Shown here: piece after piece, positions 16,256 to 62,887 of the stretch
How the letters are laid out: the number at the start of each line of letters is the position of its first letter
How positions within the stretch are numbered: position 1 is the stretch's first letter
Source: Henricia sp. BOLD:AAB3569
Lineage: Eukaryota > Echinodermata > Asteroidea > Spinulosida > Echinasteridae
NCBI GenBank assembly: GCA_037783545.1
Contig: JBBELK010000108.1
Span: 186,001 to 250,000, forward strand
Direction: 5' to 3'
DNA: 64,000 nt
Program-made: the position numbers and the translations under genes
Notes under the pieces: generated by a model
What the model saw: only the letters and a program-made list of their open reading frames with translations
Database searches by the model: none
Told to the model about the DNA's origin: nothing

Positions 16256-16317
16256 TTCGCACAAGTAACATCGCACGTCGTCGTCGTACACACATGCATG
16301 ACATGTGTCACAGGTCG

Positions 16318-16341
16318 TGACCTTGAGTAAACTATCACGTG
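16318..16341 (-). promoter_or_regulatory. Candidate ADO promoter sites: ERR element and E-box
   Basis: TCAAGGTCA (minus strand, 16318-16326) is a perfect ERR/SF1-type nuclear-receptor half-site with extension. CACGTG lies at 16336-16341. Both are 60-90 bp upstream of the ADO ATG. Function is inferred from position and motif only. Confidence 0.35.
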
Positions 16342-24539: not shown

Positions 24540-25539
24540 GTTGGCTCAGTGCAAATGAGACACAAAGTTAGCGCAAACAAAAAACACTTAATTTAAGCAT
24601 CCATACTTGATTGTTGAATGTGGGATCAATTCATGGCCCGGGCTTTGTGTCCTTAGGCAAGGCAAATTACCACGCTTGCTTCTTCTCTTACCAAGGAGTC
24701 ATCAATGAGGCAGAATCCTCTGGTTGTCTCCAAGTAGTTTAGCCATATCTGTAATGCAAAAGACAACAGAACATTTGACCAAAAAAAACCTGATTTTTTG
24801 CAATAAATTTTGACGGAAATATGCCGGGATTTTGAACACGTTTTGGTGGTTATTGAGTCATTATAAGGAACTAATGTTAAATTCCAGGAAAAGCTGTCGG
24901 TATCATCAACTTTGGATAAGCGCGCACCACGCAATTCCATTCACGTGCAAGGACTTGCCTAGCAACCGCAAATTGCGCAAACGCAATATACCTTGTGTTG
25001 AGAAATTTTATGCACACTTTATGCACAATTTAGCGTGATTTTTCGCCATTTTCCAGCACAAGGTAGAAATATTGAAAATGTTTCCCTATGTTTTTGGAAC
25101 TTCATACCCTGGCCTGGACTCCTTCCCCATATGTAGTATGCGGTACAGAGTCCAACCTGGGCTACCGGTAGGGTTACCTCCAAATACTAAAACTATAGGC
25201 TTGTTGTTTACTTAAATGATATGCTTAAAAAGCCTATACTTTCAATAGAACCATTTTTTTTCCTGCCAAAAATGTGGCTCCAAACGGAATCTTTGACCAA
25301 GTCTTTTTACAGGAAATTGCAATTTTGGGGTAAAATCAAAATCTCTACACGTTTTACATACCGCCCTGGCCGTAATACTCTCAAAACTGGCGTACACACG
25401 TCCTTAAAAACCAAATTTTTCAAGAAAAATTCCGGACCTCGTGTAACTCGATCAATTCCCTGTTTTAAGATGGCGAGCCTGCGATCGACGGCGAAAGAGG
25501 GCGCTATTTAATCGAGTCGGGCTGTTTATTCGTGACACG

Positions 25540-33710: not shown

Positions 33711-33861
33711 TCAGTTTTCGTACATGACCTGCTGCCACGGCTTGAGATCGGCTCCTTTGGCATTTTTCAGATGCTTGTAGTGGCAACGGTCGCTGTAGAC
33801 GCACCCTGTAGTCCGCCAGAAGTAACATTCGTTGCCGTTCACAGGTCCGGTCACCTTGTTG
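33711..33861 (-). CDS. Exon 19: CCCH zinc finger and stop
   Basis: 151 bp. Cys683, Cys691, Cys697 and His701 give C-x7-C-x5-C-x3-H, a CCCH finger of the kind that binds RNA. The protein ends with QQVMYEN and TGA. Acceptor GATTTAG. No clear polyadenylation signal was found close by; an AATAAA on the minus strand lies near 32963, about 0.75 kb downstream. Confidence 0.9.
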
Positions 33862-36800
33862 CTAAATCGAACGGGAAAATGTGATAGTATAGACAATGTT
33901 CTCTTTGCTTATATCTGTTGAAAATTGGTCGTTGTTATGTGCGCGCATCCTGTTTTGCATAAATTTGGTTTGGTAGTGATGCAGGTCACAAAATTCAAAG
34001 ACGATTTGATATGCGACCTCATTTATGTAAAACACGATGCATGTTTTGGTTTGCTGTGACATCAGAGGGCACATCGTCTATTGCTAGATGTACGGCAGAG
34101 AAGTCCATGGTTAGAGACTGGTTAGTCACTGTGTTGTGTCCTTAGACACTTGACTTTACTTAACATTGTCTTTCTCCACCCAGGTGTATAAATGGGTACA
34201 AGTAAATAATGCCCTTTGTAACAGTTTACAAATCATGTACTCTAACTTTAACTTGGCACGTCCAGAAAAAGAGACATCTCTAAATGTTAACTTTGCAAGC
34301 CGTACTTAACGCTTGATACTTGACATCACGTGTCTGCAACTTTGTTGTGCATGCACACTGACGTCATAGCAGTGTAGACGCATCAGAAAACGACATATAC
34401 GTTGTGATCCGACTGCATTGCGACTGCACAGATATGCCAAATTTTGAACATGCTGTTCCCACCAACACAAATCGCGACTAAATCGTAATCAGAACACATT
34501 GCAAAGCAACATATGATATTGTGGTCTTATCACGAATTTAACGCGAGGTGTACGGCCGGCAAGGTGTACAGCAAATTCACTTTTTTTTCTCAAATTCAAT
34601 TTTTAAGCATTTTTTTAAAAATTGAATGAAAAAAAAAAATCATGTTTCTTATTTTAGAAATCGTCAACCCTGTAAAAACGCCATTTTTATACGGCCATTT
34701 TTGCGCCTTGTCAGACCGACAATAATTTGAAACATTGACAGACATTGTTTGATAATATTAACAGTAAATGTTCCATAACTAAACTGTTGGTCGATTTTTT
34801 TTCATTGAATACTCATTTGAAAGAGAATAAAATTCAAAATAAATTTTAAAAATAAATAAATAAATATTTGTTAAAGTGCCACACCCAAAACGAACGGACA
34901 ATACATCTTTAAATGTTTCATACAATCATACAATCTTTAAATGTTGAAACATCTTCAATGTTTCAAATTATTGTCGGTCTGACAAGGCGCAAAAATGGCC
35001 GTATAAAAATGGTGTTTTTCACAGGGTTGACGATTTCAAAGCAATGCGAGCGCGCCAAATTCGTGCCAAGAAATACACAGCTCCATGCCTTTGCTATGGA
35101 GCTGCGTATTTTGTAGCACGAAATTGGCGCGCGCGCATTGCTGACGAGCCTGTGACTTTAACACTGCAGCCTTTTAGCACTCACTTTGCATCCCCGGCCC
35201 CTTGGCCTTGGCCTTGTGCTTGTGCTTGTCCTTGTGCTTTAGCTCCCTGCTGTTTATTGGCATTAGTCTTCTTCAAAACCGTTGTCCTGGGCTGGCCGTC
35301 GGTGATTGGATGGTCGGGGAATTTTATCAAAAGGAAGCGCCCGCCGAGCTCTGCACCCTAAGGAAGTGAAACACGACAGAGGTAGTTGTAATAGCCACAT
35401 GCAGTGTTCTCCACTGGTCACTAAACAGTGCCCAACTTAATGTTTGCCATGTGAGGGCGCTGCTCAAAATAGATGCATGTACGTGGAAGCATGCAAATAG
35501 GGGCAAGCTCGATTCACGACCATAGTTAACTATAGACCGTTTGTTTCTTGAGGACATGCATGGTTGCACATATTGTGCTTCCGTTGTTGAACTGTTTTAG
35601 TAACAAAAGGTGCCCCACGAAATGGCGGCTATTCGATACGGTCTATAGTTCGACTTCTGTAAAATCCTGTGTATAAGGCGCACCCATGTATAAGGTGCAC
35701 CTCCAAATTTGGACATCAACAGGAAAAAAGAAAATTGCAGATTTTGCGTCTGTTGCCGGCCACGATCACGAGCGCATGCATGCATCAAGCTTCGGGGTAA
35801 CTAGTTCTCTTTCATCCACCGTGTCCTCATCCTGCATTCTGGGGCCAATTTCATGGCGCTGCTAAGCACCAAAATTTGCTTAGCACAGGATTTGTTTGCT
35901 TTATTTTGCAAAAATGGATTGCCAGCCAAAATCGTAAGTGATGTGTATTGAAAGGTATTCTCCTACTCTTGCACAGAACACAAGTTGGCATATAATTTTG
36001 GCTTGTAATCCATTTTATAAAGCAAATAAACTATGTGCTAAGCAAATTTTTGTGCTTAGCAGCGCCATGAAATTGGCCCCTGGATGTCTTCCTGAGATAA
36101 TTGTTACGGGATGACGACGTTTTCCACTGAATATGTTGTCATCCTGCGATAAATTACCTCAGGATCTCAACAAGTCGGATAGCACTTCCAGACCTCCATA
36201 ATACTGCAAAAGGAGTACACGGAGGGGTTGTCCACGAAAACGTCATTCTTAGCCCAGTTTCCGGACAAAATGGCGGCACTTATAAGCCGTATCCTATTTT
36301 CCTTCTTTGTGTAAAAATAATGTATGAGTTACATTTGTTCAGCACAATGTCCTTTGTTTCAAAGGATGGAGTAATTGTGAAAAAGTGCCTTGCTCAAGGG
36401 CACAGGTACCACGATGAGAGTTGAACCCGCAACATCAAGTTTTCACCCGAGTGTTGCGAATAGGCTTGGGTGACGCCAGCATTTTCGGAGTCGACTCCAA
36501 TTCCAAAAAAGAATTGCGAATGGAATTGATTCCATTTTTTTTCACAGAAAAACGGTAAATATACAAAGTGGGTTTCAAACATAACAAGTTGCCATGGAAA
36601 CCAACCTGTAGATTGTCCAATGCTCTGGCTGCCTCCTCTGCCCGTGTGTAGTTAATGAAGGCACAAAACCGGTCTGGAAGGCGACGGAGACTTATTATTT
36701 CACCAAAACTGTCAGAAAGGAAGGGAAAAAAGTAAATAACTCTTCTTTTGAATATTACTACAATTACCAGGGGCCAATTTCATAAAACATGTTAAGCTTA

Positions 36801-39800
36801 GAGTTGCACTGTCCGTGTTTGGGTAAAAGGATTAAACAATTAATTTAGGCAAGCGAATGAATTTAGAAAGCTTACATATCTCTGTAATGAAAAATATTAA
36901 AAAAATTAAATTTCTGACATCGGGAATTGGAGATACAAGCCTTTTTCTTAAAACAGGCTTCACGTGTTGTACATAGTATGTGTACAATGTACAATGTACA
37001 CATACGCGCACTTGTACATTTACGTCATATTATGACGTACCCTGTCGAATAAAAGACAGGGCACATCTTTTATTTTTTCTTGTTTTTAATCGACTGGCAT
37101 TAATCCTTGACAGATTTTTACGTCACTAGGTTACCATGCGGTTTGGTTTGCTAGTTTTATGAAATAGGGAAAGCGCTGCTTAATCAGAAATCAGGTGCTA
37201 ACATGTTTTATGAAATTGGCACCAAATAAAAGACCACAGCAGATTTCTAACAGGTAAACAGATTTTTTTTTATAACATTAAGACTGCAGTGTTTCCTAAA
37301 AGCATTAACCAGATAACGCCGAGATTATTTTTGGCAAAAAATACCAACTTTTAAAAATTGTCCAAAAGTTAAGACCAGGTCAAGCACCACAAATACCGAC
37401 TCTTGAGTCATATCTACATTTCATTGTATGAATCTTCTCACCAAAATATCATACTTTGCAAACACTCCAAGGTGGCCTCCCAGAGCGAGATTTGCTACAT
37501 TGACAGGCCGTCTACAGCCGTCAAGTTCAAGCTCAAAACATGGTGTGTACAAATGAATGGTGGACATTGGACGTATTTACACGTCAACTGTGGAAGACAG
37601 CGGCAAAGCTGATGTTTTAAAGCCGCCTTTTCATTGACGTGCACTAGTGATCGAATTATGCCAATCCATATGTGCATCATAACACGTCTCTGGCCAAAAT
37701 ATAAATGCAATTAAATTGAATAAGAAGTAATCCAACAATAGGCATTTGAACAATACATGTAGGTTTTTGAACAACAAGATTTTGAACATTAAGCACTTCA
37801 ACAATAAGCACTTTAAAAAGAGGCATTTCAGTTAAAGAAAACTTTGGGCCTCCTAGTTTCAGTTTTTGAGTTGCTGTTCACCGACACAGTTGGCAATCTC
37901 CAGAGGGCGCCAGAACCGATCACTAGTTTCCGAGACTCGTGCCCGGTCAGCAACACTAGTCAGGAAATTACGCGCGCGCTTGAAGTCTAGAAATTTCATG
38001 CACTACCCTAAATTAGTGAACCCCACGTGACTGCGTTTCAGCCAGTCAGAATAAAGAATCAGAAAGAGGTGTGTTATAAAAATTAATCCTTTACGGGTTT
38101 GGGTGGGTGTGAAGGCAGGGGATGGATGAGACTTACGGTGCAAACAGATCACGGAGTTGCTTCTCAGATACTGTGGAATGGAGATTGCCTACCCATAGGT
38201 TAGTCACACTTAGCGGGTTGCGAGAACTGAAAAGGAACAAGAAAAAAGTGATTACAAGTTATGGAGATAATAGTCACAAAGTTGTATTACGCCAAGAAAA
38301 AAATATTACAGGAAATTCATATGCATGCCTTATATCCAGAAAGCGTAATAGACTATGTAAGTCTCGCGGCAAAGGTCAAATCTGAGCTTCCGGGCACAAC
38401 ACGACTAAAACGCCTATTCCTATAACACAGGCAAGATTGTTTTTTGTATATACATTTTTCTGTCCAATCTTAAGTATACAAATGTTTTTTACAATATATA
38501 ATACATGCATAATTATCTCTAAAAACGATAAATTTATTAAAATTTCGTGACCTCAATAAATTTCTCTGCTAGCATATTCTTCATCCAATTTGGAATGGAT
38601 GACCCAAGTGTAGATTCATGTGAAAATGAATGCTTCGAATCTGGGCACTCTAAAAAAAAGTCTGCAAGCTCTACTTTTGGTAGATGGCGTTTCGCCTATC
38701 GCTAGCGAGGTCTGTATGTACACTGTAGGCCTACGTACGTCGGCTGCTGTGCGTGTTGCATATCTTTTGCTGCATGTAGTTTACGATCTTCAAAGATTGA
38801 CTTGTCGGCTCAGAAAAGATCGTGAATTTTTACATTTCGATTTCTTATTTTTGATTATATACTCCACTTCATCAATTGAAATGCAAGATTTTATTTAGAG
38901 ATGCGCGGTTTGGGCCGTCTGAGTTTACAAAAACCTGCGTAAACAAAATAATCCAAGAATTTCGCTCGCGACGTGCGATGAAGAGATAGGGTCTTGTGCC
39001 CAGAAATAACAGTGGTCTCGCGCGGTCTCGTATGTTCGCGAGGTCAACTTACATAGTCTATAACCAATGCACACACAATGAACAAAGTGACGGTGGGAAT
39101 TGGAAAGGGAGGCTTTATATACAGTAAAAAAACAAAAAAAAACAAAAAAAGGAATCCACAAATCATACTCTGACCGAAAAGGCTCGTAAATGTAGCGCAT
39201 TTTATCGGTTAGTAATGCGTATGGACACCTCTTGTGGCAAGGCCGATTGCAACAGCCTCCGTAAGAGCAGCTGAGGCAGGGTGTGCCACTCTGAAGTTCT
39301 CCTCAAGAGACTGCACTTCCAATCAAGTTTTTGAGATGTGGGGCTTCAGAGGTCAGTTTATCCCACACGCAGGCAGAAATCAGTTTTCTAAGAGCCCTAA
39401 ACTACAGGATTCTTCCATAAAATGGGAAAAGTCACATTTCTTCGCTGTGGAAATATCTTTGTTCAAACAGGTCCACTTTGACCATCACTGAAGCCGAACA
39501 GTCTTGAAAACGATTTCAAAGGTGAATCAGTGCTTTGTTATCCACAAGTTCAATGCGTTACAAAAAAAAACTTGTTCTAATCACGAACAAATATACTGAA
39601 CAAAAGAACCACAAATTTTTTGTTTATTTAAAACGTGAATTTTTTTTAAAAGTTTCATTATCATAACAGCTTCATTATGCATGACTGCATAAAGCTTCTG
39701 TGTGCTGAAAACTCCCATTGTGTTTTTCAATTGAAAAGTGAAGTTTTTTTGGGGAAGAGTATAATTCATCCCCTTAATGGCCCATTGTATCATTTGCAAA

Positions 39801-42800
39801 CTTGAGGAATGACCACTACTCACTCGAGTTTGCTACTTTCAATGGTTTCGGTAATAAAATCTTCCTCGTCGGAGAAATAAACGTCTTCGGAGAATGAGTT
39901 GACGACTCCTTCGACGCCATTGGTCAGTAGAGCGTCTAAAGCGGCCTGGACCGAGCCGAATTGACGAATGGCGACGTCGCTTTGTGGACGAGTGAAACCC
40001 ATTTCCTGCAAGCCAACCACAGTGCAACTTAAAAAAACATTCTTTTTTCTTTGTAAAATGCCCATAAGGGTAAAACAAACCCTAATTAACATTCAGTCTC
40101 CCAGACGCAAGCTAAATCAATTTCTGAAAGCTCATAGGCTAGTCCTCAGGTACATACAAGGGTTATGCCTTGGTTACACTATGCCAATTGTCGTCCGTCA
40201 AGTCCGTTGTATATACAACAATGCTATTAAAATACATCTACCACAGGATGATATTCTAAAGCAGTTCGTTGGAGAAAAAAAATCCTGTGGTGGATGTATT
40301 CTTTGTTTTCGAATGTGTGGCTAGACTTAGGCAGTCGAATCGTTAAGCTAGCTTTGCTCGCGTAGGGCATGGATGAAAACAGCGCGATGCATGAATTTTG
40401 TGGACCGCTGGTGAAAATATACGGAACGGAGAGTATCTGGAACAAATTTAACTCATCCGTTTTGACGTGTGGCCACGCGACGGACGGACTTACCCACTAC
40501 GGATGTAACGTACAACGTGCACCTGCCCTAACCAAGGCAATACATGTGAATAATTCATGAGCAGCCAACCAACCACTCACCATCATCCGATGTAACCAAG
40601 GCATAAGTATGAATAATTCATGAGCAGCCAACCAACCACTCACCATCAGTCGATGTAACCAAGGCATAAGTATGAATAATTCATCAATAATTCATGAGCA
40701 GCCAACCAACCACTCACCATCAGTCGATGTAACCAAGGCATAAGTATAAATAATTCATGAGCAGTCAACCAACCACTCACCATCATTTGATGTAACCAAG
40801 TATGAATAATTCATGAATAATTCAACCAAGCACTCACCATCAGTCGGGCAATGCGGACTTCTTTCAGCTCTGCCACGGCGTCCTCGCAATTTTTATCCAA
40901 TTTTAGAACATGTACAAAAGCATTCTCAGCCTCGCCATATTCCTGGAATGTGATAAAAAAAACTAAATTAAAATGTGAACACAAGGGACGAAATTGTTTT
41001 AAAAACAATCAGATCCTGATAAACTAACGAAATAGAATGGCCGGAAAATAAAATAAACAAAGAGAAATTGAAAAAAAAAAAATAACATGCTCCTGATTAG
41101 GATTTTAACCAAGGACCTAAAGCACTCTTGGCAAATTCGGAAAATAGTAGTAAAAACGAATTACAGGATTAAAACATTTTTTAACATTTCACTTTACACC
41201 CACCCCCATATTCAGCTGTGCTGCACATCCCCCAAATGCTTATAATCATAAACGACACATCATTGTATTAAGAATAACACTTGTTTCATACAGGCGCTCC
41301 AGAGTGTGTAACAGGGCTTTCCAATGATACCAAATTCAAGAAAAATGATATGGTAACAAGAGAGAAATCATCAGTCAAACTCGAGTTTCCAAACGTTTTT
41401 GAGGCATTTATTTGCACTTGCATCCGCTGCATGCCTATTTCTGATTCTAACATTTCTAATTAAATTTATACTCATTCCACTCAATGATGGCTATGCTACA
41501 AGTTTAAGCAAATTTAAGGTACAAATTATTGTTATAATTTCCAAAGCAAGCATACCTTGAGGCCGGCTAAAGCCCGTCCTTTTCTAAAATGGCCCTTTGG
41601 CCAGTCCTTTGATAGAGTAATAGCCCGATCTGCATCTTTTAAAGCACTGCAAAAACACATGGAGACAATGGCGTCAGTTCGACATCCAAAGCATTTTGTT
41701 CTTCAAAACATCGCTAAAATTTGACCATCTAAAATGTGCAATTGTATCCATGCCTACTGCAGTGACAATCAAGTCAAACTGCCCTCAAGTCCCAAGTCAA
41801 GCCTGGTCAAACTGCCTTCGAGTTCCAAGTCAAGTCAAGTAAAATGGCCTTCGAGTTTTAAATCAAGTCAATTCAGGCATGTTGGTCAAGTCAGTTCAAG
41901 TAAAGTAGTATTTGTTCAAGTTAATTTCAAAATGAGTGTAAACCCTGAATCTTGCATACGTGTATTTTTGTTGTTGTCCGGTATTCCATGTTTTAAAAGA
42001 CAATTCGGGCGTCAAACTGACAAAAAATGCATAAAAGTTCAATTTCACTTTTGGAAGACCAAGTAAAAAATGTACAAGTCCAAGTCAAGTCAAGTCATTT
42101 AAGGTTCCAGTCTCAAGTCAAGTCAATAAAAATTGGGAATCGAGTCGACTCGAGTTGGAGTCTCGAGTCCGAGTCAATACAACCCTGCTACAAATTGTGC
42201 AGACGACGACCCAATTATTGGCACTGAACAGCACTAAACGTCCATCAAATGAAGCCAGCCTATGCCACACACTAGTCCCTAAAATGTGGAAATTATCAGA
42301 CTATTTTGGCTTCGGAATCGCTAGGTAATTTCTGGACTCTGCAAGCTATCACTGAGAATCGAATCTAGATGAAAGGAAATCAAAATCTGTAATTCCGATT
42401 CGATTCCCAAAGTGAAATCGATTCTACTCGATTCTGGTGCGAAATCACCCAAGCTTAACAAATTGCAATTTGCGGAACAAGTCGACACCTGATCTCGAGA
42501 TAGACTTTGAAAAATAATGTACAGCCTCCACAAACAACTTACTCTTCATACTGTTGAAGACGGTCAAAGCAAAAAGACCGATTTCCAAAAAATCTGCAAA
42601 GGAAATGGAGACAAAATGAGTAGGACAAAGAGTTACAAGGGGCATGATTTTGAAGATATTGGGGGGAAAAAGAGGCTGTGGTGACTGACCCGAGTAAAAC
42701 CATGGGTGTGACACCATGGCTAAACCATGGCTAAACGGAAGACTGGGAAAAGTCCTAGGACGGACCAGAGAAGCTACTCAAATGCGACCATATTCTCCAT

Positions 42801-54800: not shown

Positions 54801-57800
54801 ACATTCCCGGATGTTCTACGTCACGGAAAGCAATCAATACCGCAATTCAACACTTTATATTCATTGGTTACGTGATAACTCTGTGCAAACCGGCCCAGAT
54901 TAAACCAAACATATCATCCAGTTCGGAAGTGTTTTAGAATGAATATCCTGTGGTTAACTACAGGATGTTTCTATTGAATGCATTGAGGCGGCTGATTTGG
55001 CATCGAAAAAGGGTGAAGAAAAAAAACATCCTGCATAGCACCCGTGACGCGGGAAGTACACTCCGAACAACTTTAGGTTTGGATAACACTGCAAAAAAGG
55101 GGTGCACATTTTTGAAAAAGTTTACAGATGGAATATCGAATATTCGAACAAAACAATTACTCGAAATACAAAGCATGATTTTTTTTCGTTAAAAAAAAAG
55201 GAAATGCTTTAAAAATTCGTTCGGAGAAATAAAATTGAATTTGCCGAGAACCACGGACAATATAACTTTAACTGAAGGCCAGTTGAGCTGTTCAGTTAAA
55301 GAATGTCTGAATTTAGCGGGATCCACCCACACAAAAGTGAGTCACTTTTTGCAAACTTTAAGGGAAAAACATACAAAGGTTACGTACACAAAATATGTAC
55401 ATTTTTATTGATTTTTCAAATAAAAAGATATGGCTTTTGCATTATTTTCTTTTTTAAGTTTGGCATGGGCGAGTAACCAGTAACACAACTACATGATTTT
55501 TAGCCTTACACATGTATATCTTTCAGTTAGTTTATATTTACAGGAAAAAAAAAAACAGTTTCACTTACCATGGTGAAAACAAATTCGTCTTCATTTCCTT
55601 TTGTTGTAAGATATTTGTATGCAGCAGAAATGTCTTGAAATTTCTATGGGGGAGAAGGAAGGGACATCATTATTAAAGAAAGCAGGGTTCTCCCCACGTA
55701 CAAACGTCGGTATCGGCCCGATACGCTGAAATTCCAGGCCGATACGCAGGAAAAATTGCCGATCAAAAAAAATCAGCTCCCATCATACGCACAACAAAAA
55801 ATCAAAAATATCACACATGGTGCTGCTAAGGAATATAATAAAATTACCATACATAAATTTTCTCTCGTGAAAAAAGAACCACAGAGAATTCATGGCAAAC
55901 AATCATTCATTCTGATTCGAACTGCCGACCAAAAACAGCTCTCGATACGGTACAGACGGCCCGGTCCCGGCCCCTGGTGCTGGTCCACCGGGCGCCGGAA
56001 CGTGCCTAGTCTGGTTTCCGGACATAAGATTCCCGGCTTTAGTGGGGTGGTAACCAGTCCAACTCATGCCGATCACCATTTTGTTAACTTGAACGTCATT
56101 GGCCAGAATTTACTAGCAACAGGTCATATTATTTTTATCAGCCAATCAACATGCGTTTTACAACACGAGTTGGCCTCTTACTCTGATCGGGAAATCCCCT
56201 GTACGTGAAATCCCCTGCACGTACATGACATGCAGGGTGTGGTTGAAACCCGGAGGTCGGAGTAACCCGGAGGTAGAATTTTTTGTTACTGTGTAGTACA
56301 TGCTACAACCTACCTCCGGCTTGTTATTTTAATACAACGTAGCTCCGGAGCACGTCAACGCACCAACTACACGTTAGCAAAAACATCTACCTCCGATTTT
56401 TATAAATTTCCTACATGACATACATATTTTGTAGCTGGGTTGTCGATCGTAATTTTTGATCGTTTTCTCGTGCATCGCAGCGACCGTGTTTTGCTTGATC
56501 GTCATTTTTATGGAAAATATCGTCAACTTCCATGGATAATGTGCAAAAATGTATTTGAAAAATGAGAATATTTCGTGTGGAATGGTCACCAACTACCGGC
56601 AATGACCGCGTACGGCCGGCGGCGGCCGTGTTGCGTCAAGCCTGCCGTGTCGCGTCAAGCCTGTCGGGCGGGCTGCCACTCTGTGTCTGCATGCAGCACG
56701 CGGGTAATGGACTGGGAACCCGGAAGACTGCATGAGGCCATGGGCGCGGTAGTTGATCATGGCTTCAAACCATGTGTGCAAAACATGAGGCAGACTGAAA
56801 TTGTTTGCACACAAAATATTAAAAAATTTTCAATCAAAAATGTCCAGTTTTTCCATCAAATCTGCTCTCACCGATGCTTTATTACATGTATTAGTCCTAT
56901 TAGTCTTTTAAAGATTTTTTTTAAAACAAATTTTTTTATCCATAACCATGATAACAAGCCCTTCAAGACCCCAGGATAGCTCTAAATGCACCAGAAAGCT
57001 TGTAAAGTCTCAAATTTTCCCGGCGCCCTTAAGCGGGCCCCGGACCCCACGCCGTCGCTTCGCAGGTTATCGAGTCGTTACAGCATTGGGCCCCACACAT
57101 TTTGAAACAACCTGGGGAGAACCCTGGAAAGTATACATGATTGGTAAACTGTTACAAATAGTTTTATCCCCGTGTGATTGAAGATATGCATGATTAAAAC
57201 CAACCTGAGCAAAAACCAGCTCCGTACTTCGTCTAACTTTTGAAAAAACAGTAAACAAAAAAAGGTTTTGCAGTCATTTCGCCCCAAAACCACTTCGCCC
57301 TGAACAATTTTGTCCTGAAATACGGCCTGTGCACGAAGTGGTTTTGGGGCGAAGTAGCATTTGGGCAATGTACACTGTAGTGTTTGGACGAAGTGATTTG
57401 GGGCGAAATGGCACTCGGGCGAAATGGTTTTGGGGCGAATTGAATTTTCGTCTCATGAGACGGAAACTAATTGTTTTACTCATTTCTCAAAGACTATAGC
57501 ACTTTAGACAAAACCATTTCAGGGGAAGTTTTCTACGGTCATCATGTTTATATTGTGTAAGTTGAGCGTAAGTCTGTGAACATTTCTGATTTTCGGGATA
57601 CCAATCATGTATACTGCCTTTAAAGGGCGGGACTTGTCACGGACTTGTGATTTTATCGCACAAACGTGCGGGTGAGGGCGAGAAGCGCAACATGCAGAGA
57701 ATCACACGCCTAACAAGCTGCATCGTACGCACACGCGTCACGTTTATATTCGCAGTCATGTAGCATACAGCTACAAGATAATGTAATATGTCTTGTAATG

Positions 57801-60800
57801 TGTCATGTACAGTGTAATCATGTCAAATTTCATTGAGACACTGGTAAAATCAGTGCCCATAATGTTATTCCAAATTGTATGGGTCATAGGAAGTATGTAC
57901 AGTATGTAGTATACAAATGTACATATGTTAATACAAGCACAACCGGAAAACTACTGAGCCATACTGTACATGTGTACAAACACTGGGGGTTTCCCTTTTT
58001 ACTTGTGATTGTGCAATCGGATTGGATTTCACAATCACACAGGAACAGGGTTCTCCCCACGTACAAACATGCGTATCGGCCCGATACACTGATATTCCAG
58101 CCCGATACGCAGGAAAAATTGCCGATCAAAAAATTCAGCTCCTGATACGCACAACAAAAAATCAAAAATATCACATATGGTGCTGCTAAAGAATACATCA
58201 TGAAAAAAGAACCACAGAGAATTCATGGCAAACAATAATTCATTCTGATTCGCACGTACGGCCGACCAAAATCAGCTCTCGATACGGTACAGATGGCCCG
58301 GCTGGTCCACGCATTCCGGAACGTGCCTAGTCTGGTTTCCGGACCATAAGATTCCCGGCTTTAGTGGGGCGGTAACCAGTCCAACTCATGCCGATCACTG
58401 TTTTGTTAACTTGAACGTCATTGGCCAGAATTTAGTAGCAACAGGTCATATTATTTGTATAATATCTGTATACAGGGTTAAGGATGGCATTCTCGGGGTT
58501 AACGGCCAAACCTCGGGGTTAGCATTGTAGTGGGAAACCAAGCAGAGTTAAGTGTTCACAGGCAATCTTGGGGTTAGCACGCGCTGCGCTGGCACAGATC
58601 ATATACATGTACACACTGTACGTAAGTACATGCAAATTTTTGCTCTCCCAATAAGGCATGGCTTCTCAAGCACCGTATATCCCAATTCATAACAAAAAGA
58701 AGAGGACAAAGGTGTGGTAAGAAGATGAAATAAAGCTCCTCATCCAGGCCTGGTTGATAGACAAGTTCAGTAACAACTTGATGGGACTACTCGAAAATCA
58801 GAATAAGATGTTTGCAGATTTCCAATCCTCCAGTCCCTGTTTACAGATATGCCCGCGCATAGTGGGAAACCGCACTCCGCTAACTCGGGGCAAGCTCGCC
58901 CTGGGTTTAGCGAAACTCCGGGTTAAAGGCACAGGCTCGTCAGCAAGCGTGCGCACCAAATTCGTGCGCGCCAAATTTGTGGCACAAAATACGCGGCACA
59001 AAATACGCAGCTCCATGTCTTTGCTATGGAGCTACGTATTTCATGGCACGAATTTGGCATGCGCGCATTGCTGACGAGCCTGTGCCTTTAATGGAAACGT
59101 AATTCGGGTTTAACGAACCCCGGGTAAGCAAAGCTTAACCCGAGCGGCAAATCTCCGGGTTAAGCAGTTTGTACATGTGTAGTGGGAAAAGGCTATATGA
59201 TACAGAGCTGCTGCATGTCGAGCGTAAGGGGAAAACCCACATGAGAAATTTTATGAAGCACGGAAGAGAGTGAGAAATACATGTACCGTAGAAACAATGG
59301 CCGGCCAAGCACATTTTTCACTGTTTTTTGCAAGTCTTAAATCAGCCCAAATTTAAATACTTCACTAAATGTTTGGGTAAAAGTTGGGAAGTTGATCAGA
59401 AATTTTTTTTTTTTAAATGACTCATCTAGCATTGGAATGTGCAGATTTGATAGAAAAATGAAAATTTTGAGTTGGTAAAATTTATGATTTTGTGAGGAAA
59501 CACTTTTTTTGAGCCCGTCTCATATTTTTTTTGGAATTGGAGTCGACTCCGAAAATGCTAGAATCGCCCAAGCCTGGTCAGTGTTTACCACGCGAGGGCG
59601 CTGCTTAGAGCAAATTGTTGACCACTAGAGAACACTTTCATGATATGACAAATTTGTGATGCTCGGATATATGGGAATTACATGTGTTTCAAATTGGCAC
59701 TGGAAAAAGATTGAAAGTTGATCATGGCTTCAGACCTTGTGTACAAACCATATGTGACAAGTTGAAAAATTTATAAGCGTTTCCGCACAAAATAATAAAA
59801 TGTTCTCACTCCAAAATTTAGGTTTTTCCCATCAAATCTGCACTTGTCGATGCTTGCTGAGTAATTTAAAAAAACAAAATTCTAATAGACCTTTAATATG
59901 TGTAGCGGCCATGATAGAGGGCAGGTTTTCATATTTAAATGATGTGACAATAGATCCACAATATGCCTACTCGTGCACGACGCACTTTCTATGCATAGTT
60001 CCGACCTGTCAATCAAGCCGAACCCGCCGACCAATCACAACAGAGCTAGCAGACAGCGCCCACAAAGGTCAAAGTGATGCAATCATCACAACAATTACGC
60101 GATTTTCTGCCCATACAGTTTGTATGTTGTATGCGCCAGTGACCGGGTGAATTTTGGTTTCAATGTCTGGCGATTCGCTGTTCAAAGGTAGGAAAGCGCA
60201 TTTTTATGAATATATGTCATCCCTGCATTACTAGCCTTTCGCTTAGTGTGTGCTACGGTAACTGTCGACCCTAAAACATAAATACCTTTTGAGTTTTCTC
60301 CAATGAATCTGTGCTTTTCATGCCGAGTCCCGTTGCTTTGTACGTTGTGTGTCGCCATTTTTTGAGATGGCTTGTGAGCACATAGCAACAATATCTAAGG
60401 GGCGGGTTTAACTGGGCAATCTCGGAACTATGCATTGTGACTGCCCTCTATCATGGCCGCTACGCATAAGGTCTATTAACTTCTCAACTCTTACCCTGGC
60501 ACCTGAACACTTACCTGAGTGGCTTCTTGATCATTCTTAGCATGTTTATCTGGGTGCCATTTGAGTGCCAGACGCTTGTAGGCTGTTCGGATATCCACAT
60601 CACTGGCATCTGTCAATGTTGAACGACATTTCCAGACTTGGGTTATTTTATCAGATTATAGAAAAAAGATTTTTGCATTCCTTAAGCATGTTAAGTATGT
60701 CAGCGGAGTCATTTGTTTTTTTGGTTTTTTTTGTGGTCTATTTTTGCGATATATAGGCCTACCCCGGTACATGTACCGGTAGGCCTACATGTACATGTAC

Positions 60801-62771
60801 ATGTACCTGTAGGCCTAAATGATCAAATATCAGTTTCTTTGGATCACAAATTACGAAAAAGCTTTAGTAAAAAAGACTTGAGTAATCGACCAGGACTTCA
60901 AACCTTAAACAAAACAAATGAGACTGGCTAAAAAAAAGGGGGGGATTTTTTGTTCAGATTGAACAAAGATTTTAAGAAAATCACCTCCTGGAATCAACAG
61001 ATATTATACTACGGTATAGGATATACTTCCTACTTGCACTTCTGTCGGAAATGTTGCATTTCTGGGATAATTAATTGATAAGATTATTGCTAGTTGGCCT
61101 AATGGACAAAATCACAGCGCAAGTGCAGCTCCGTGCGTAAGTGCGACAATAGAGGGCGCTGCATGCGTGTGTACATGTTTCATCTAACAGGATGCAAGTT
61201 TTAAAGGAGAAAATGTAATTTTTCTTTAGAAAAGCAACATTTGCGACAAAAGTGCATACGGAAAGTAGGACGTAGGTAGGTTTCGGTTCTGTGACCTCTA
61301 GCACGGTGAAAACAAATGCCAGCTCACATAGAACATGCGACTCGGTCACGGGGCGACTCGGTCAGGGGGTGAGTCAGTCAGGGGGCGACTTGGAAAGGGG
61401 CGAGTAGGTAAGGGGCGACTCCGCCAGGGGGCGACTTGACCTGCTTTCCCCTAGCCCTAGGGCAGGCCTACTGATGTTTGATAAGTCATTATCTGGAAAA
61501 ATAGGGCGTCTTTTTCTTAGTTCTTACCAGCCTACGAGATCATACTAACGGCTTGCCGCACCATTCAAACACGAGGATGGAACAGCTGGTTCAACCATGC
61601 CCATGGGTTCAAAATTGGGAAATAAACCTAACAACCCGCGGCATGATTTTTCGCATAGTGGCGAATAAGCGATTTTTCAGAAATTGAGATTGTCATATTT
61701 AGGGTTCTAAAGATGCCAATTTTCATTTGTGAAGGTTTTAAATCGAAATTTTTAGTGGTTTTTGAGTTATTAAAAAGTGCAGAATGGCGAATAGGCTTAT
61801 GATTTGAACAGCGTTTTTTGCGTAGTGACGAGTACCGACATTACGTTGGTGACCGATGGCGCCTTGCGCATTACAAGGCAACGCCTCCTGCTGGGAACCA
61901 ACATACATTGCGTGAACCAAACACTCCTAACTTGGGGAAAAATCAACCACACTGTGGATTTTGCAGCGTTTAACCCTTTCCTTACCAATGTCGAGTTTAC
62001 TCGACCACACAACATTTTAGGCTTCCTTACCATTGTCGAGTTTACTCGACCACTGACCTCATTTGTAGGTTTCCACACATTTGCCCATAAATGTGGTACA
62101 CAATAAACAGGTGCCAATAAACAATGCAGTATGCAAAGGGTTAAGAAGGAATTAATTGATAAATCAAATGCTAAAATAACCACGTGTCCATCTGTGTAAG
62201 TACCGGCCAATGACGAAACTGAAGACGACTGTTCAGATTTTTACAGACACATGCATTATTTGATGCAAAAGAATAGGCACGGCGAATAAGTACCACAGCC
62301 GGCTTGCATTTTTTGCATAGTGACGAATCGTGAAAAAGTCCATAGCGTTACGAGCGGTGAATAAGACGCACGTGGTGTTTTGTTTTTTCGCGTAGTTTGT
62401 GGCACCAATATCCCTCGGAGATTTACTCATCATGCCAAAAACCCAACATAATTTTAGTAAAACTATTCGCTAACATTATTCTAACAAAAATTGAATTTTG
62501 TTACGAAAAGAAAACGAAATCCAAGAACCAGAATATACAATACTAAAAAGCCGTATTACTCGAAAGTGGAATTTTGCTGATTCGCCACTATGCGAAAAAT
62601 GCGACGGATTGTGCATTGTGCCACTGCACATGCACCGAACTCAGAACTGGTGCATTTTGGCACCTGGTTTTATCAACACCTAAACAACAAAAACAAACCC
62701 AAAATGCGAAACAGTCACCCACCTTTTGAAACACCCAGGATGTCACGAGCCCTTGTCCTGTCGAGTGACAT
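33711..62771 (-). CDS. J-domain / TTC31-like TPR / UBA / RRM / CCCH protein, 19 coding exons, 720 aa
   Basis: Joined exons (plus coordinates, in order of translation): 62723-62771, 60515-60609, 55569-55643, 54235-54280, 51767-51880, 50008-50042, 47825-48178, 46045-46181, 44931-45105, 43734-43779, 43031-43121, 42543-42593, 41556-41646, 40838-40942, 39824-40005, 38137-38226, 36606-36708, 35185-35357, 33711-33861. All 18 introns are GT-AG, phases agree at every join, and the sum is 2163 nt (720 codons plus TGA). The start ATG follows an in-frame TAA at 62802-62804. Domains: J-domain about 8-65 with HPD at 35-37; acidic 98-112; coiled coil 139-245; TPR 376-488; UBA-like 489-525; RRM 558-630; CCCH zinc finger 683-701. 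The TPR core (motif FFGNRSFC) and the preceding basic coiled coil recall TTC31; I know of no J-domain in TTC31 itself. Known roles: J-domains stimulate Hsp70; RRM and CCCH bind RNA. Inferred role: Hsp70-linked RNA-binding cofactor. A 5' noncoding exon is possible. Confidence 0.85.
34100..34240 (+). repeat. SINE-like fragment (CCTTAGACACTTGACTTT)
   Basis: Shares GTGTTGTGTCCTTAGACA and the CCAGGTGTATAAATGGGTAC tail with 48490-48560 plus 48985-49020, and is the intact site for the insertion at 48562-48984. Confidence 0.65.
34560..35035. repeat. Foldback related to 4560-5050
   Basis: AAAACGCCATTTTTATACGG and CCGTATAAAAATGGTGTTTT invert around a centre near 34850. The left arm matches the sequence interrupted by the 204-bp element at 4716-4919. 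Confidence 0.75.
35036..35157. mobile_element. AGGCACAGGCTCGTCAGC MITE, copy 2, left end lost
   Basis: Right end GCTGACGAGCCTGTGACT|TTAA; the left end is replaced by another palindrome arm. Its end is about 25 bp from the exon 18 donor. Confidence 0.8.
35185..35357 (-). CDS. Exon 18: RRM last strands, then Gln/Ala/Gly tract
   Basis: 173 bp. It starts with [15 protein letters not shown], which completes the RRM (beta-4 and beta-5), then a low-complexity [16 protein letters not shown] tract. Donor GCAAA|GTGAGT, phase 2. Confidence 0.9.
35530..35648. mobile_element. CCATTTCGTGGGGCA MITE, copy 2 (intron 17 side)
   Basis: ACTATAGACCGT ... CGAAATGGCGGCTATTCGAT with the same centre (GAGGACATGCATGGTTGCAC). 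Confidence 0.75.
35841..36080. mobile_element. GGGGCCAATTTCATGG foldback, copy 1
   Basis: 240 bp; ends GGGGCCAATTTCATGGCGCT / AGCGCCATGAAATTGGCCCC, arms with TGCTTAGCA words. Intron 17. Confidence 0.88.
36120..36335 (+). repeat. Dispersed repeat shared with 2650-2910
   Basis: Second copy of the CGAAAACGTCATTC / GGACAAAATGGCGGC repeat. Confidence 0.7.
36362..36450 (-). repeat. SINE head fragment, inverted
   Basis: GTGCCTTGCTCAAGGGCACA and GTTGAACCC are reverse complements of the SINE head, in intron 17. Confidence 0.55.
36606..36708 (-). CDS. Exon 17: RRM second half (RNP1)
   Basis: 103 bp encoding [20 protein letters not shown] then helix B ([11 protein letters not shown]). The RNP1-like segment RFCAFINY keeps two aromatic positions but lacks the usual Lys-Gly start. 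Phase 2 in, 0 out. Confidence 0.92.
36771..37222. mobile_element. GGGCCAATTTCATAAAAC foldback, copy 2
   Basis: Ends GGGCCAATTTCATAAAACAT / ATGTTTTATGAAATTGGCACC. The centre has TGTACAATGTACAATGTACA palindromes and ACGTCATATTATGACGT. Intron 16. Confidence 0.8.
38137..38226 (-). CDS. Exon 16: RRM first half (RNP2)
   Basis: 90 bp encoding [20 protein letters not shown]: beta-1 with RNP2 (LWVGNL) and helix A. Phase 2 at both ends. Confidence 0.92.
39824..40005 (-). CDS. Exon 15: UBA-like domain and acidic tail
   Basis: 182 bp. It encodes [19 protein letters not shown] and QAALDALL, with the MGF loop and A..ALD.LL helix 3 of UBA domains, then an acidic stretch [11 protein letters not shown]. The donor GA|GTGAGT is phase 2; if unspliced, the frame stops at once (GAG TGA). 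Confidence 0.85.
40165..40535. mobile_element. TGCCTTGGTTA MITE in intron 14
   Basis: Ends TGCCTTGGTTACACTATG and CTAACCAAGGCA; inner GTCGTCCGTC / GACGGACGGAC words are inverted. Confidence 0.7.
40536..40830. repeat. Tandem repeat made of the exon 14 splice donor and a MITE end
   Basis: Units of 63-74 bp. Each holds ACTCACCATCA (the exon 14 donor on the minus strand), GTAACCAAGGCA (the MITE end) and GAATAATTCATGAGCAG. Donor copies end at 40580, 40643, 40717 and 40780; the true one is at 40837. Confidence 0.9.
40838..40942 (-). CDS. Exon 14: TPR unit 3 and capping helix
   Basis: 105 bp, phase 0 both ends, encoding [16 protein letters not shown] and a capping helix. The last 9 bases and the donor (CGACTGATG|GTGAGT) are copied four times in the following intron. 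Confidence 0.92.
41556..41646 (-). CDS. Exon 13: TPR unit 2 second helix and unit 3 start
   Basis: 91 bp encoding [20 protein letters not shown] and [10 protein letters not shown]. The WPKGHFRKG turn is typical between TPR units. Phase 2 in, phase 0 out. Confidence 0.92.
41755..42185. repeat. GAGTC/CAAGTCAAGTC element (intron 12)
   Basis: CAAGTCAAGTCAAGT and GTCGACTCGAGTTGGAGTC words ending GTCAATACAACCCTG. Related to 46330-47530 and 52118-52517. Confidence 0.7.
42543..42593 (-). CDS. Exon 12: TPR unit 2, first helix
   Basis: 51 bp encoding [16 protein letters not shown]. This is the most TTC31-like motif in the protein. Phase 2 at both ends; donor AAGA|GTAAGT. Confidence 0.9.
43031..43121 (-). 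CDS. Exon 11: TPR unit 1
   Basis: 91 bp. It encodes [19 protein letters not shown] then [12 protein letters not shown], a canonical TPR with G, Y, A and P at the expected places. Phase 1 in, phase 2 out. Confidence 0.92.
43205..43631. mobile_element. CTTTCCACGGTAAAGGGGGC foldback, copy 2 (intron 10)
   Basis: The fullest copy: both arms complete, including CCAGACAAAG, CTGAAGAGATAACTTAGGCC and GGGTTACAAATAGTGTGACA. The central CCGTCCCGGTTACG stem is present. Confidence 0.88.
43734..43779 (-). CDS. Exon 10: lead into the TPR
   Basis: 46 bp encoding [15 protein letters not shown], the helix just before TPR1. Acceptor TCTTTTACAG, donor CAG|GTAATT, phase 1. Confidence 0.83.
44283..44705 (+). mobile_element. 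CACTTCGCCCCAAAA element, copy 2 (intron 9)
   Basis: Same head (AATCTCGAAAATCAGAAATG), array and tail (ACCAATCATG..CTGCCT|TTAA) as the element at 144-669, same orientation. It lies in intron 9 of the J-domain gene. Confidence 0.75.
44931..45105 (-). CDS. Exon 9: acidic then Ala/Lys-rich linker
   Basis: 175 bp, phase 2 in, phase 0 out. It starts with [13 protein letters not shown] and ends with a [14 protein letters not shown] stretch that could serve as a nuclear localisation or RNA-contact patch (inference). Confidence 0.88.
45237..45565. mobile_element. CTTTCCACGGTAAAGGGGGC foldback, copy 3 (intron 8)
   Basis: Arms as in copy 2 but lacking the central CGTCCCGG stem; the arms meet at TTAGAAAGGCATGTTGTCAC. 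Confidence 0.85.
46045..46181 (-). CDS. Exon 8: Ser/Thr/Lys-rich linker
   Basis: 137 bp, phase 0 in, phase 2 out. Low-complexity, with [15 protein letters not shown]. Acceptor CTCCAAACAG, donor CTG|GTAAGT. Probably disordered. Confidence 0.88.
46335..46830. repeat. 33-34-bp minisatellite A (intron 7)
   Basis: About 14 units of GTGCCTTCGAGTCCCAAG followed by TCAAGTCAAGTCAAA. Open frames across it are artefacts of the period. Confidence 0.92.
47057..47500. repeat. 33-bp minisatellite B (intron 7)
   Basis: About 13 units of CATTTGAGGTTCGAGTCTCA followed by AGTCAGGTCAAGT. Some units carry AAATC or TTAAG variants, so a higher-order order may exist. Confidence 0.92.
47540..47765 (+). mobile_element. 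SINE-like repeat, copy 3 (intron 7)
   Basis: CCCTTGAGCAAGGCACTCAA, CCCAGAGCATTCTTTCATG and an A-rich tail. Directly follows the 33-bp minisatellite. Confidence 0.7.
47825..48178 (-). CDS. Exon 7: basic/acidic coiled coil, 118 aa
   Basis: 354 bp, phase 0 at both ends. It is Lys/Arg/Glu-rich throughout, with [13 protein letters not shown] and later [10 protein letters not shown] heptad-like repeats, a long single helix or coiled coil. It resembles the charged segment before the TPRs in TTC31 (from memory). The open frame runs on upstream into a transposon-derived repeat at 48221, but the acceptor TTCCTCCAG at 48179 ends the exon before it. Confidence 0.93.
48221..48407 (+). mobile_element. GTGGCAGAGGGTATTCCCC element, copy 3 beside exon 7
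   Basis: Terminal repeats ATCCAGCATGATGTGGCAGA and TTGCCACATATCGTGCTGGG. It starts only about 40 bp upstream of exon 7, so the exon 7 reading frame extends into it on the minus strand. Confidence 0.75.
48562..48984. mobile_element. 423-bp element, GTGTTTACAC ends, in a SINE
   Basis: Flanked by TAAA (48558-48561, 48985-48988). Ends ACCGTGTTTACACTGG / AAGTGTAAACAGGCCT with AGCTCGGGATCAA inner words. The host SINE is whole at 34185-34205. A partial copy lies at 49330-49400. Confidence 0.85.
49447..49600. mobile_element. CACAGTACTGGAATAAACTG palindrome
   Basis: Arms over 60 bp: ACAGTACTGGAATAAACTGC, CTGTCAGTGGCTGGGTCC and inverses, with a short loop. Confidence 0.85.
49601..49820. mobile_element. 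GGGTCTTTCTATAAATTAGG MITE, copy 2 (intron 6)
   Basis: Ends GGGTCTTTC / GGAAGACCC; 4-bp flank TATA on both sides. Inserted at the very end of the palindrome 49447-49600. Confidence 0.88.
50008..50042 (-). CDS. Exon 6: microexon-like linker, 35 bp
   Basis: Encodes [11 protein letters not shown] after a split Glu codon. The acceptor TTTTCCACAG is strong. The donor AGT|GTGAGT was chosen because it gives phase 0 into exon 7; an alternative GT two bases upstream would break frame. Confidence 0.75.
50145..50420. mobile_element. GTTGC/GCAAC-rich foldback, copy 2 (intron 5 side)
   Basis: Ends GCCTAGTGTACATCGACACT / AAGGTTGATGTACACTAGGC; same GCAACTAGTTGC words. A degraded third piece follows at 50470-50530. 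Confidence 0.8.
50612..50744. mobile_element. AGGCACAGGCTCGTCAGC MITE, copy 3, nested
   Basis: Perfect TTAA at 50608-50611 and 50745-50748. Inserted into the left arm of the GGCCAATTTCAT foldback (50571-51491). Confidence 0.92.
50816..51354. mobile_element. 539-bp hAT-type element, CGTTTAAACG arms
   Basis: Ends TAGAGCTG / CAGCACTA; 8-bp duplication GTTCTTAG (50808-50815, 51355-51362). Arms of CGTTTAAACGTTTAAA. An 8-bp duplication is diagnostic of the hAT group. The inside encodes nothing recognised. Confidence 0.9.
51767..51880 (-). CDS. Exon 5: acidic Asp/Ser stretch
   Basis: 114 bp, phase 1 at both ends. It encodes a run with [12 protein letters not shown], a likely disordered acidic region with possible CK2 serine sites. 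Acceptor TTTGTTCAG, donor ACAG|GTTTGT. Confidence 0.85.
52117..52517. repeat. GAGTCCGAGTCACGAGTC element (intron 4)
   Basis: Ends GTGTTGTAGTCGAGTCAC / GTGACTCGAGTACTACAACAC are inverted. The flanks are GAGTC-rich, the centre unique. Confidence 0.75.
52542..52575 (+). tRNA. tRNA 5'-half fragment
   Basis: GATAGCTCAGTTGGTAGAGC is a perfect tRNA D-arm with A-box; nothing tRNA-like follows. A relic or SINE head. Confidence 0.35.
52766..52993. mobile_element. CAGGGGGCAGCGTAAAAA MITE
   Basis: 228 bp. Ends CAGGGGGCAGCG / CGCTGCCCCCTG, flanked by CACTGTC (52759-52765, 52994-53000). Arms include CTTGATATCAGGTA and GACTTATTTCAAGTCT. Confidence 0.88.
53471..53833. mobile_element. Degenerate GCCGTGTCCACATTGGACTT element
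   Basis: Left AGCCGTGTCCACATTGGACT, right AGTCCGATGCGGACAGGCCT, next to TTGA / TTAA. Inner TTTACCGAGAC words repeat. Confidence 0.6.
54235..54280 (-). CDS. Exon 4: short aromatic/acidic linker
   Basis: 46 bp, phase 0 in and phase 1 out, encoding [15 protein letters not shown]. Acceptor TCTCCCACAG, donor AGAG|GTAAGA. No named domain; the hydrophobic DLFAQMFF patch could be a short amphipathic helix. Confidence 0.85.
55569..55643 (-). CDS. Exon 3: J-domain helix III
   Basis: 75 bp, 25 codons, phase 0 at both ends. It encodes [12 protein letters not shown], matching J-domain helix III, then an acidic linker. Acceptor CCCCATAG, donor ATG|GTAAGT. Confidence 0.92.
55684..56136 (+). repeat. CAGGGTTCTCCCCACGTAC repeat, copy 1 (intron 2)
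   Basis: About 450 bp shared with 58046-58457, including ATCGGCCCGATACGC, AAAAAGAACCACAGAGAATT and GGTTTCCGGAC. Ends look hAT-like. Confidence 0.75.
57126..57619 (-). mobile_element. CACTTCGCCCCAAAA element, copy 3 (intron 2)
   Basis: Reverse-orientation copy. The high end reads CATGTATACTGCCT|TTAA. The low end is degenerate. Intron 2 of the J-domain gene. Confidence 0.75.
58046..58457 (+). repeat. CAGGGTTCTCCCCACGTAC repeat, copy 2 (intron 2)
   Basis: Same order of blocks with short internal deletions, direct orientation, 2.4 kb from copy 1. Confidence 0.75.
58658..58822 (+). pseudogene. Myb/SANT-like domain remnant of a transposon protein
   Basis: ATG frame [20 protein letters not shown], stop (TAA), then [11 protein letters not shown], like the W..EE...LL..W pattern of Myb/SANT domains carried by Harbinger-type transposons. 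Surrounding CGGGGTTAA words suggest an element spanning 58490-59180. The stop makes it inactive. Confidence 0.5.
58927..59087. mobile_element. AGGCACAGGCTCGTCAGC MITE, copy 4
   Basis: Perfect TTAA at 58923-58926 and 59088-59091. An internal 20-bp part (CACAAAATACGC) is duplicated. Confidence 0.92.
59883..60478. mobile_element. Same MITE family with a nested 433-bp element
   Basis: Outer ends TAATAGAC / GTCTATTA and GCGGCCATGATAGAGGGCA / TGCCCTCTATCATGGCCGC. A second element sits inside at 59997-60429. Intron 2, about 40 bp from exon 2. Confidence 0.8.
59997..60429 (+). mobile_element. Nested 433-bp element, AGTTCCGA ends
   Basis: Ends AGTTCCGA / TCGGAACT, flanked by ATGCAT on both sides (59991-59996, 60430-60435). 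Relative at 13280-13520. Confidence 0.8.
60515..60609 (-). CDS. Exon 2: J-domain helix II, HPD loop
   Basis: 95 bp, phase 1 in and phase 0 out. It encodes [13 protein letters not shown], the helix II and HPD loop that contact Hsp70. The donor is CAG|GTAAGT. The acceptor (TTGACAG) has a weak pyrimidine tract. Confidence 0.93.
60763..60818. repeat. TACATGTA / TAGGCCTA palindromic microsatellite
   Basis: GGCCTACCCCGGTACATGTA followed by CATGTACATGTACATGTACC and TAGGCCTA. In intron 1's lower flank. Confidence 0.8.
61341..61438 (+). repeat. GGGGCGACTCGGTCA short tandem repeat
   Basis: Six to seven imperfect 15-bp units, GACTCGGTCA-GGGGGC, in intron 1. Confidence 0.85.
61646..62600. mobile_element. 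Foldback with ATTTTTCGCATAGTGGCGAA ends (intron 1)
   Basis: Perfect 20-bp inverted repeat at 61646-61665 and 62581-62600. Inside, GCGAATAAG and GCATAGTGACGA words recur, and GTCGAGTTTACTCGACCAC occurs twice (about 61990 and 62036). Confidence 0.8.
62723..62771 (-). CDS. Exon 1: start codon and J-domain helix I
   Basis: Encodes [16 protein letters not shown] plus the first base of an Asp codon. The RDILGVSK segment is the typical start of a J-domain. The donor reads AAAG|GTGGGT (phase 1). The ATG is the first in frame after a TAA at 62802-62804, which supports it as the true start. Confidence 0.85.
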
Positions 62772-62887
62772 TTTTAAAAAGAAGATTTCGACTATGAAAT
62801 TTTAACATTCATCAACTTTCTTTGCAGCTGTCATAACTTCGATTACAGAGCACGTTTCGCCATGTTTGCTTTCTTGCGCGACTGTCC

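Follow-up and report, generated by a model that had tools for sequence, protein, structure and literature searches.

Several J-domain proteins that carry additional TPR or RNA-binding modules have been described. DNAJC17 and Cwc23 combine a J-domain with a long coiled coil and then an RRM, and a study on the human Hsp70 network describes DNAJC17, which is found in nuclear speckles, as the sole J-domain protein that has an RRM; this RRM is reported to inhibit the J-domain stimulation of Hsp70 (PMC12248113). DNAJC7 and DNAJC3 have a J-domain and TPRs in one protein, arranged in catfish as seven TPRs followed by the J-domain, and the survey of catfish Hsp40 proteins also includes TPR-DnaJ and DnaJ-RRM_1 proteins (PMC4277396). 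A further relative in layout, TTC31, is in humans a protein of 519 amino acids with a coiled coil at residues 147 to 197 and TPRs at residues 305 to 406, and its long disordered stretches are placed at residues 82 to 310 and 399 to 519 (PMC7279152). Its knock-down leads to chromosome-congression defects and additional centrosomes, and it interacts genetically with PTTG1 and PTEN (PMC3817404); the neighbourhood of the TTC31 gene is treated elsewhere (PMC2446394).

Here we describe a locus of the echinoderm Henricia sp. BOLD:AAB3569 at which one chain of in-phase exons encodes, in this order, a J-domain, an acidic linker, a basic coiled coil, three TPRs, a UBA-like domain, an RRM and a CCCH finger, and the module order given in a preliminary description of this DNA is thereby recovered. 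The window analyzed is a stretch of 64,000 nt (assembly GCA_037783545.1, contig JBBELK010000108.1, positions 186,001 to 250,000), to which all coordinates refer. When the raw strand was read again and the exons were joined, an ordered set of GT-AG exons was obtained on the minus strand from 62771 to 33711 (approximately 29 kb), with a start ATG at 62771, an in-frame TAA 33 nt 5' of this ATG and a TGA stop codon ending at 33711. In a 20-exon model, all 19 introns are GT-AG, the phases agree and the product has 742 residues. The same model without exon 7 (49192..49257) has 19 exons and 720 residues; this is the gene as first proposed, and it was rebuilt exactly. However, the extra in-phase exon of 22 codons likely belongs to the gene, and 20 exons are probably the better count. 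A short upstream reading frame is located just before the start in exon 1, with an ATG at 62834 and a TAA stop at 62804-62802 (62802-62834).

Exon 1 (62723..62771) encodes residues 1 to 17 and ends at the donor AAG/gtgggt. Exon 2 (60515..60609), whose codon use was equalled by 0 of 2000 null segments, contains the HPD-bearing part of the J-domain and gave a DnaJ match both in the assembly-wide scan and in Pfam, and exon 3 (55569..55643) encodes helix III of the J-domain. In the numbering of the 720-residue form, the DnaJ family matches residues 10 to 63 with 65.0 bits (cut-off, 27.8), and the HPD is intact at residues 35 to 37, which identifies the product as a J-domain protein (Hsp40), as had been claimed. 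Among the 15 Pfam families listed up to an E value of 1 for the whole 720-residue protein, DnaJ_C and DnaJ_CXXCXGXG are absent. Since no DnaJ_C is found among the Pfam matches listed, we assign the protein to class C and not to the class A or B Hsp40 proteins.

The J-domain is followed by a series of short exons. Exon 4 (54235..54280) bears a faint likeness to the stretch after the J-domain of DNAJB6, in a 0.8-bit alignment that is not significant; exon 5 (51767..51880) encodes an acidic Asp/Ser linker (codon P value, 0.0095; weak donor, 1.3 bits); and exon 6 (50008..50042) also contributes to the linker. Exon 7, which is in phase 0-0 and was absent from the earlier 19-exon model, has a codon P value of 0.013, or of 0.077 with external training only, and a weak donor (0.5 bits). 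Similar donor scores of 1.6 and 1.4 bits were obtained for the RRM-coding exons 17 and 18. The basic coiled coil is encoded by exon 8 (47825..48178), an open exon of 354 nt with a total score of 72 bits and a codon use equalled by 0 of 738 null segments; 60% of its 118 residues are charged (K/R/E/D), and the coil is judged from this composition. A Ser/Thr/Lys linker in exon 9 (46045..46181) and a linker that is first acidic and then Lys rich in exon 10 (44931..45105; codon use equalled by 0 of 2000 null segments) complete this part of the protein. Two extensive arrays built from related units of 33 bp lie in the intron that separates exon 8 from exon 9, at 46336-46809 (14.7 copies) and 47058-47495 (13.4 copies).

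The TPR region begins in exon 11 (43734..43779) and extends through exon 12 (43031..43121; TPR 1), exon 13 (42543..42593; TPR 1/2, with FFGNRSFCF) and exon 14 (41556..41646; TPR 2/3) to exon 15 (40838..40942), which encodes TPR 3 and helix 1 of the UBA-like domain. Exon 13 has the lowest total score of all exons (3.3 bits) and was retained for its homology. In the 720-residue form, TPR_2 matches three stretches with 45.0 bits (cut-off, 27.0), and the three TPRs reported initially are thus upheld. By sequence, the nearest solved structure to this core is that of Hop (STIP1), which to our knowledge has no J-domain, RRM or zinc finger. At what we take to be the clamp positions of Hop TPR1, namely, K8, N12, N43, K73 and R77, the echinoderm protein has A397, N401, N432, K462 and R466, the last two of which are encoded by exon 14. 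Four of these five residues are common to both proteins, but the full carboxylate clamp for Hsp70/Hsp90 tail binding is not present, Lys8 being replaced by Ala. Just downstream of exon 15, a tandem array (40529-40800) has copied the exon 15 donor site: CGACTGATGGTGAGTG is found at the real donor (40831-40846) and at four further downstream positions with 0 to 2 mismatches, which places decoy donors in intron 15.

The remaining modules are less uniform in their support. Exon 16 (39824..40005) encodes UBA-like sequence, including the MGF that is intact at residue 512 of the 742-residue form, and an acidic tail. The UBA family matches residues 483 to 512 (720-residue numbering) with 15.9 bits in the whole protein and with 21.6 bits (E value, 1.9e-4) when this piece is scanned alone, both below the Pfam cut-off of 22.4, and against the PDB the piece gave weak matches to Dsk2 with a best E value of 0.054. 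The RRM is encoded by exon 17 (38137..38226; RNP2 LWVGNL at residue 581), exon 18 (36606..36708; RNP1 RFCAFINY at residue 614) and exon 19 (35185..35357), the last of which contains the end of the RRM and a Gln/Gly/Ala linker; RRM_1 matches residues 559 to 622 (720-residue numbering) with 59.7 bits (cut-off, 20.7). The third position of RNP1 is Cys, where the consensus presumably calls for an aromatic residue. In exon 20 (33711..33861), which includes the stop codon and has a codon use equalled by 0 of 2000 null segments, a C-x7-C-x5-C-x3-H pattern was read directly, with the ligands C705, C713, C719 and H723 (742-residue numbering) intact. The sole CCCH-type Pfam match of the whole protein is zf-CCCH_3 with 14.5 bits (cut-off, 31), and C-terminal pieces scored 11.1 and 13.2 bits for zf-CCCH (cut-off, 20.5) and 19.2 and 21.2 bits for zf-CCCH_3, all below the cut-offs; among solved structures in the PDB, the C-terminal CCCH piece had no match up to an E value of 5. 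Of the UBA-like domain and two RNA-binding modules in the preliminary description, the RRM therefore exceeds its cut-off, whereas the UBA-like domain and the CCCH finger are recognizable yet remain below theirs. In light of the Lys8-to-Ala change in the clamp and the Cys in RNP1, both chaperone-tail binding and RNA binding may be weak.

We conclude that one gene carries the whole architecture from the J-domain to the CCCH finger, with a probability of roughly 0.8. The in-phase exon chain and the DnaJ, TPR and RRM matches above cut-off argue for a single gene, as was originally claimed, but the J-domain-to-coiled-coil link, made of three or four short exons, is its weakest joint. This link is likely; we do not regard it as proven, because the outcome for this bridge varies with the search settings. 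Exon chains were searched blindly, from nothing but the flanking exon on either side and its phase, and the tested exons were kept out of the codon model. The exon penalty was not preset; values of 10 and 14 were used first, then 6, 8 and 10 and then 4 to 12. For the interval from exon 3 to exon 8, each of three codon models was run at five penalties (4 to 12), with 300 dinucleotide shuffles each. At penalties of 4 and 6, all three models returned the path 4-5-6-7 exactly, and 0 of 300 shuffles reached the score. At a penalty of 8, the score was reached by 1, 1 and 2 of 300 shuffles, and the external-only model omitted exon 7; at 10, it was reached by 3 and 10 of 300 shuffles (paths 4-5-6 and 4-6), with no chain in the external-only model, and at 12 no chain between exons 3 and 8 was found in any of the three codon models. 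Other runs over exons 4 to 7 gave 0 of 60 shuffles at penalties of 6, 8 and 10; in a further set, 4 of 100 shuffles reached the score at 10, and a penalty of 14 left no chain. Exon 7 itself was recovered blindly at penalties of 4, 6 and 8 and not at 10, and with external training only, it was recovered at 4 and 6. Exons 9 and 10 were recovered without any shuffle reaching the score, whether of 60 at penalties of 6, 8 and 10 or of 100 at 10 and 14.

Exon stretches backed by homology served as controls at penalties of 6, 8 and 10. For exons 11 to 15, four of five exons were recovered and 0 of 60 shuffles reached the score at every penalty, and for exons 2 and 3, both, both and one exon were recovered, again with 0 of 60 shuffles. 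Exons 17 to 19 performed poorly (2, 2 and 0 of 3 recovered, with 1, 4 and 60 of 60 shuffles reaching the score and one extra exon at a penalty of 6). Since these exons spell a clear RRM and yet score poorly, the chain test misses true exons. Codon use of single exons was mixed: with leave-one-out and external training, 11 of 20 exons had P values of 0.0165 or less and exons 1, 3, 4, 6, 9, 11, 13, 17 and 18 were unremarkable, and when the training was external only, P values below 0.05 were seen for 9 of 20 exons. CpG depletion, considered as a promoter or gene-body signal, was uneven and confounded by repeats and was set aside.

The setting-dependent bridge raises the question of whether the chain combines two neighbouring genes on the same strand, namely, a gene for a J protein of approximately 147 residues (exons 1 to 6, with a stop at 49980) and a TTC31-like gene from exon 8 onward, which begins either at an internal Met or with a first exon that is noncoding. 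When the exon 6 donor is skipped, the frame indeed continues for 20 codons to the stop at 49980, which is adjoined by an ATTAAA at 49976, and a J-only transcript ending after exon 6, alone or as an isoform, is possible. The borderline or missed status of exons 4 to 7 at stricter settings also speaks for two genes, as does the human TTC31 protein, for which a coiled coil and TPRs but no J-domain are mentioned in the available text (PMC7279152). However, exons 4 to 7 outscored 300 of 300 shuffles in all three codon models at penalties of 4 and 6, and their phases match on both sides. Moreover, the 1,829 bp from exon 6 to exon 8 offered no candidate for a first exon with an ATG and a donor of at least 3 bits that feeds exon 8 in frame, a search to which a noncoding first exon would be invisible. 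The open frame into exon 8 meets a repeat that starts 41 bp upstream, and only about 400 of the 1,013 bp between exons 7 and 8 are outside the repeats found. These are located at 48220-48412, with a 97% copy in a flanking 10-kb piece by local repeat BLAST, and at 48562-48982 (40 of 5,886 candidate places scored); another, at 49612-49820, lies between exons 6 and 7 (40 of 3,103 candidates scored). We also compared all 25 open frames of at least 110 amino acids overlapping the gene span with protein families at E values up to 0.01. One frame is exon 18 of the gene itself, with an RRM_1 match of 20.5 bits as the sole match near a cut-off, and 22 frames gave no family match. In the remaining two frames, which belong to the 33-bp arrays, matches to Glyoxalase_5 (18.6 bits; cut-off, 27), CBM_6 (19.8 bits; cut-off, 28.9) and Apolipoprotein (18.4 bits; cut-off, 90) are below cut-off and were taken as chance. 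On balance, we consider two separate genes unlikely.

A single chain of exons could also be young, arising from a fusion private to this lineage, or be produced by a misjoined assembly. The assembly is odd elsewhere, one contig carrying apparent tandem mitochondrial copies; however, all exons of the gene are in order and in phase on one contig of 1.36 Mb. In addition, when the assembly was scanned with the protein sequence of each half, high-identity matches were confined to this contig, and neither half had a second copy of high identity; other matches were at 28 to 40% identity for the TPRs and at 42 to 61% for the J-domain. A recent fusion or a misjoin in place of an old architecture is unlikely in our judgment.

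If the exons do belong to one gene, the protein is plausibly, by its layout, an echinoderm member of the TTC31 family. Like human TTC31, it has a coiled coil, here in exon 8, that is followed by three TPRs, here the three TPR_2 stretches, whereas no J-domain, RRM or CCCH finger is mentioned for the human protein in the available text, and the C-terminal residues 399 to 519 that are called disordered there correspond in position to the UBA-like, RRM and CCCH modules of the echinoderm protein (PMC7279152). The likeness to TTC31 noted in the preliminary description thus agrees, in layout, with the published protein. In sequence, too, the TPR core and the basic coil presumably resemble those of TTC31 strongly. 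Entries with J, TPR, RRM and CCCH modules may exist for invertebrates and fish in protein databases. It is accordingly rather probable that this is a catalogued TTC31-type protein whose invertebrate members have these domains in databases and are undescribed in papers, a reading that agrees with the human layout (PMC7279152) and is compatible with a single gene.

The DNAJC17 and Cwc23 architecture shares the J-domain, coiled coil and RRM and, as published in the text available, has no TPR, UBA or CCCH module (PMC12248113). DNAJC7 and DNAJC3 share the J-domain and TPRs, but in the catfish proteins the J-domain is last, whereas here it comes first, with three TPRs and RNA-binding modules, and none of the proteins in the accessible part of that survey has the present order (PMC4277396). 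A search of titles and abstract openings in the literature, as distinct from animal protein databases, gave no published description of the J-coil-TPR-UBA-RRM-CCCH order. The gene thus encodes a variant architecture of the J-protein kind that is absent from the published descriptions found and that may sit unnamed in animal protein databases. We tentatively suggest, at somewhat less than even odds, that it represents the complete form of an ancient animal J-protein linking Hsp70, ubiquitin recognition and RNA binding, and that vertebrate TTC31 is derived from this form by loss of the J-domain and the RNA-binding ends. In that case, TTC31 with its centrosome role would be the decayed form of a co-chaperone linked to RNA.

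With regard to function, we infer from the sequence that the exons are transcribed into a single mRNA, and the targets and every binding activity are deduced in the same way. Based on the precedent of DNAJC17, with its J-domain, coil and RRM, and on the set of modules present, we propose an RNA-targeted Hsp70 adaptor. It is conceivable, with a chance approaching one-half, that this class C J-protein recruits Hsp70 to clients that are bound to RNA or ubiquitylated. In such a mechanism, the RRM and CCCH finger would anchor the protein to RNA or to RNA-protein particles, the UBA-like and TPR modules would recognize ubiquitylated clients or chaperone tails, and the J-domain with its HPD would switch Hsp70 on at the RNA-bound site, so that the protein could act as an adaptor that targets Hsp70 to RNA-protein complexes, somewhat as DNAJC17 does with the spliceosome. 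The knock-down phenotype of human TTC31 is not RNA related and neither supports nor excludes such a role. Should the locus encode one protein, it would be a J-domain co-chaperone with its own RNA-binding and ubiquitin-binding modules, would suggest a concrete hypothesis for human TTC31, which has been little studied, and would allow a direct test of whether dedicated J-proteins recruit Hsp70 to RNA-protein complexes beyond the spliceosome.

Some observations were made outside this gene. On C955, the contig with the apparent tandem mitochondrial copies, COX1 occurs three times at a spacing of exactly 16,221 bp, which looks like tandem mitochondrial genomes produced by the assembler. Reading AAA as Asn and ATA as Ile in COX1 of this assembly restores what we take to be conserved residues, which points to the echinoderm mitochondrial code. 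Within the window, the minus strand also carries an open frame of 604 amino acids with many C2H2 zinc fingers at 22731-24545 and, at 15506-16402, an apparently intronless open frame of 298 amino acids that matches PCO_ADO with 160.6 bits (thiol dioxygenase, ADO family).
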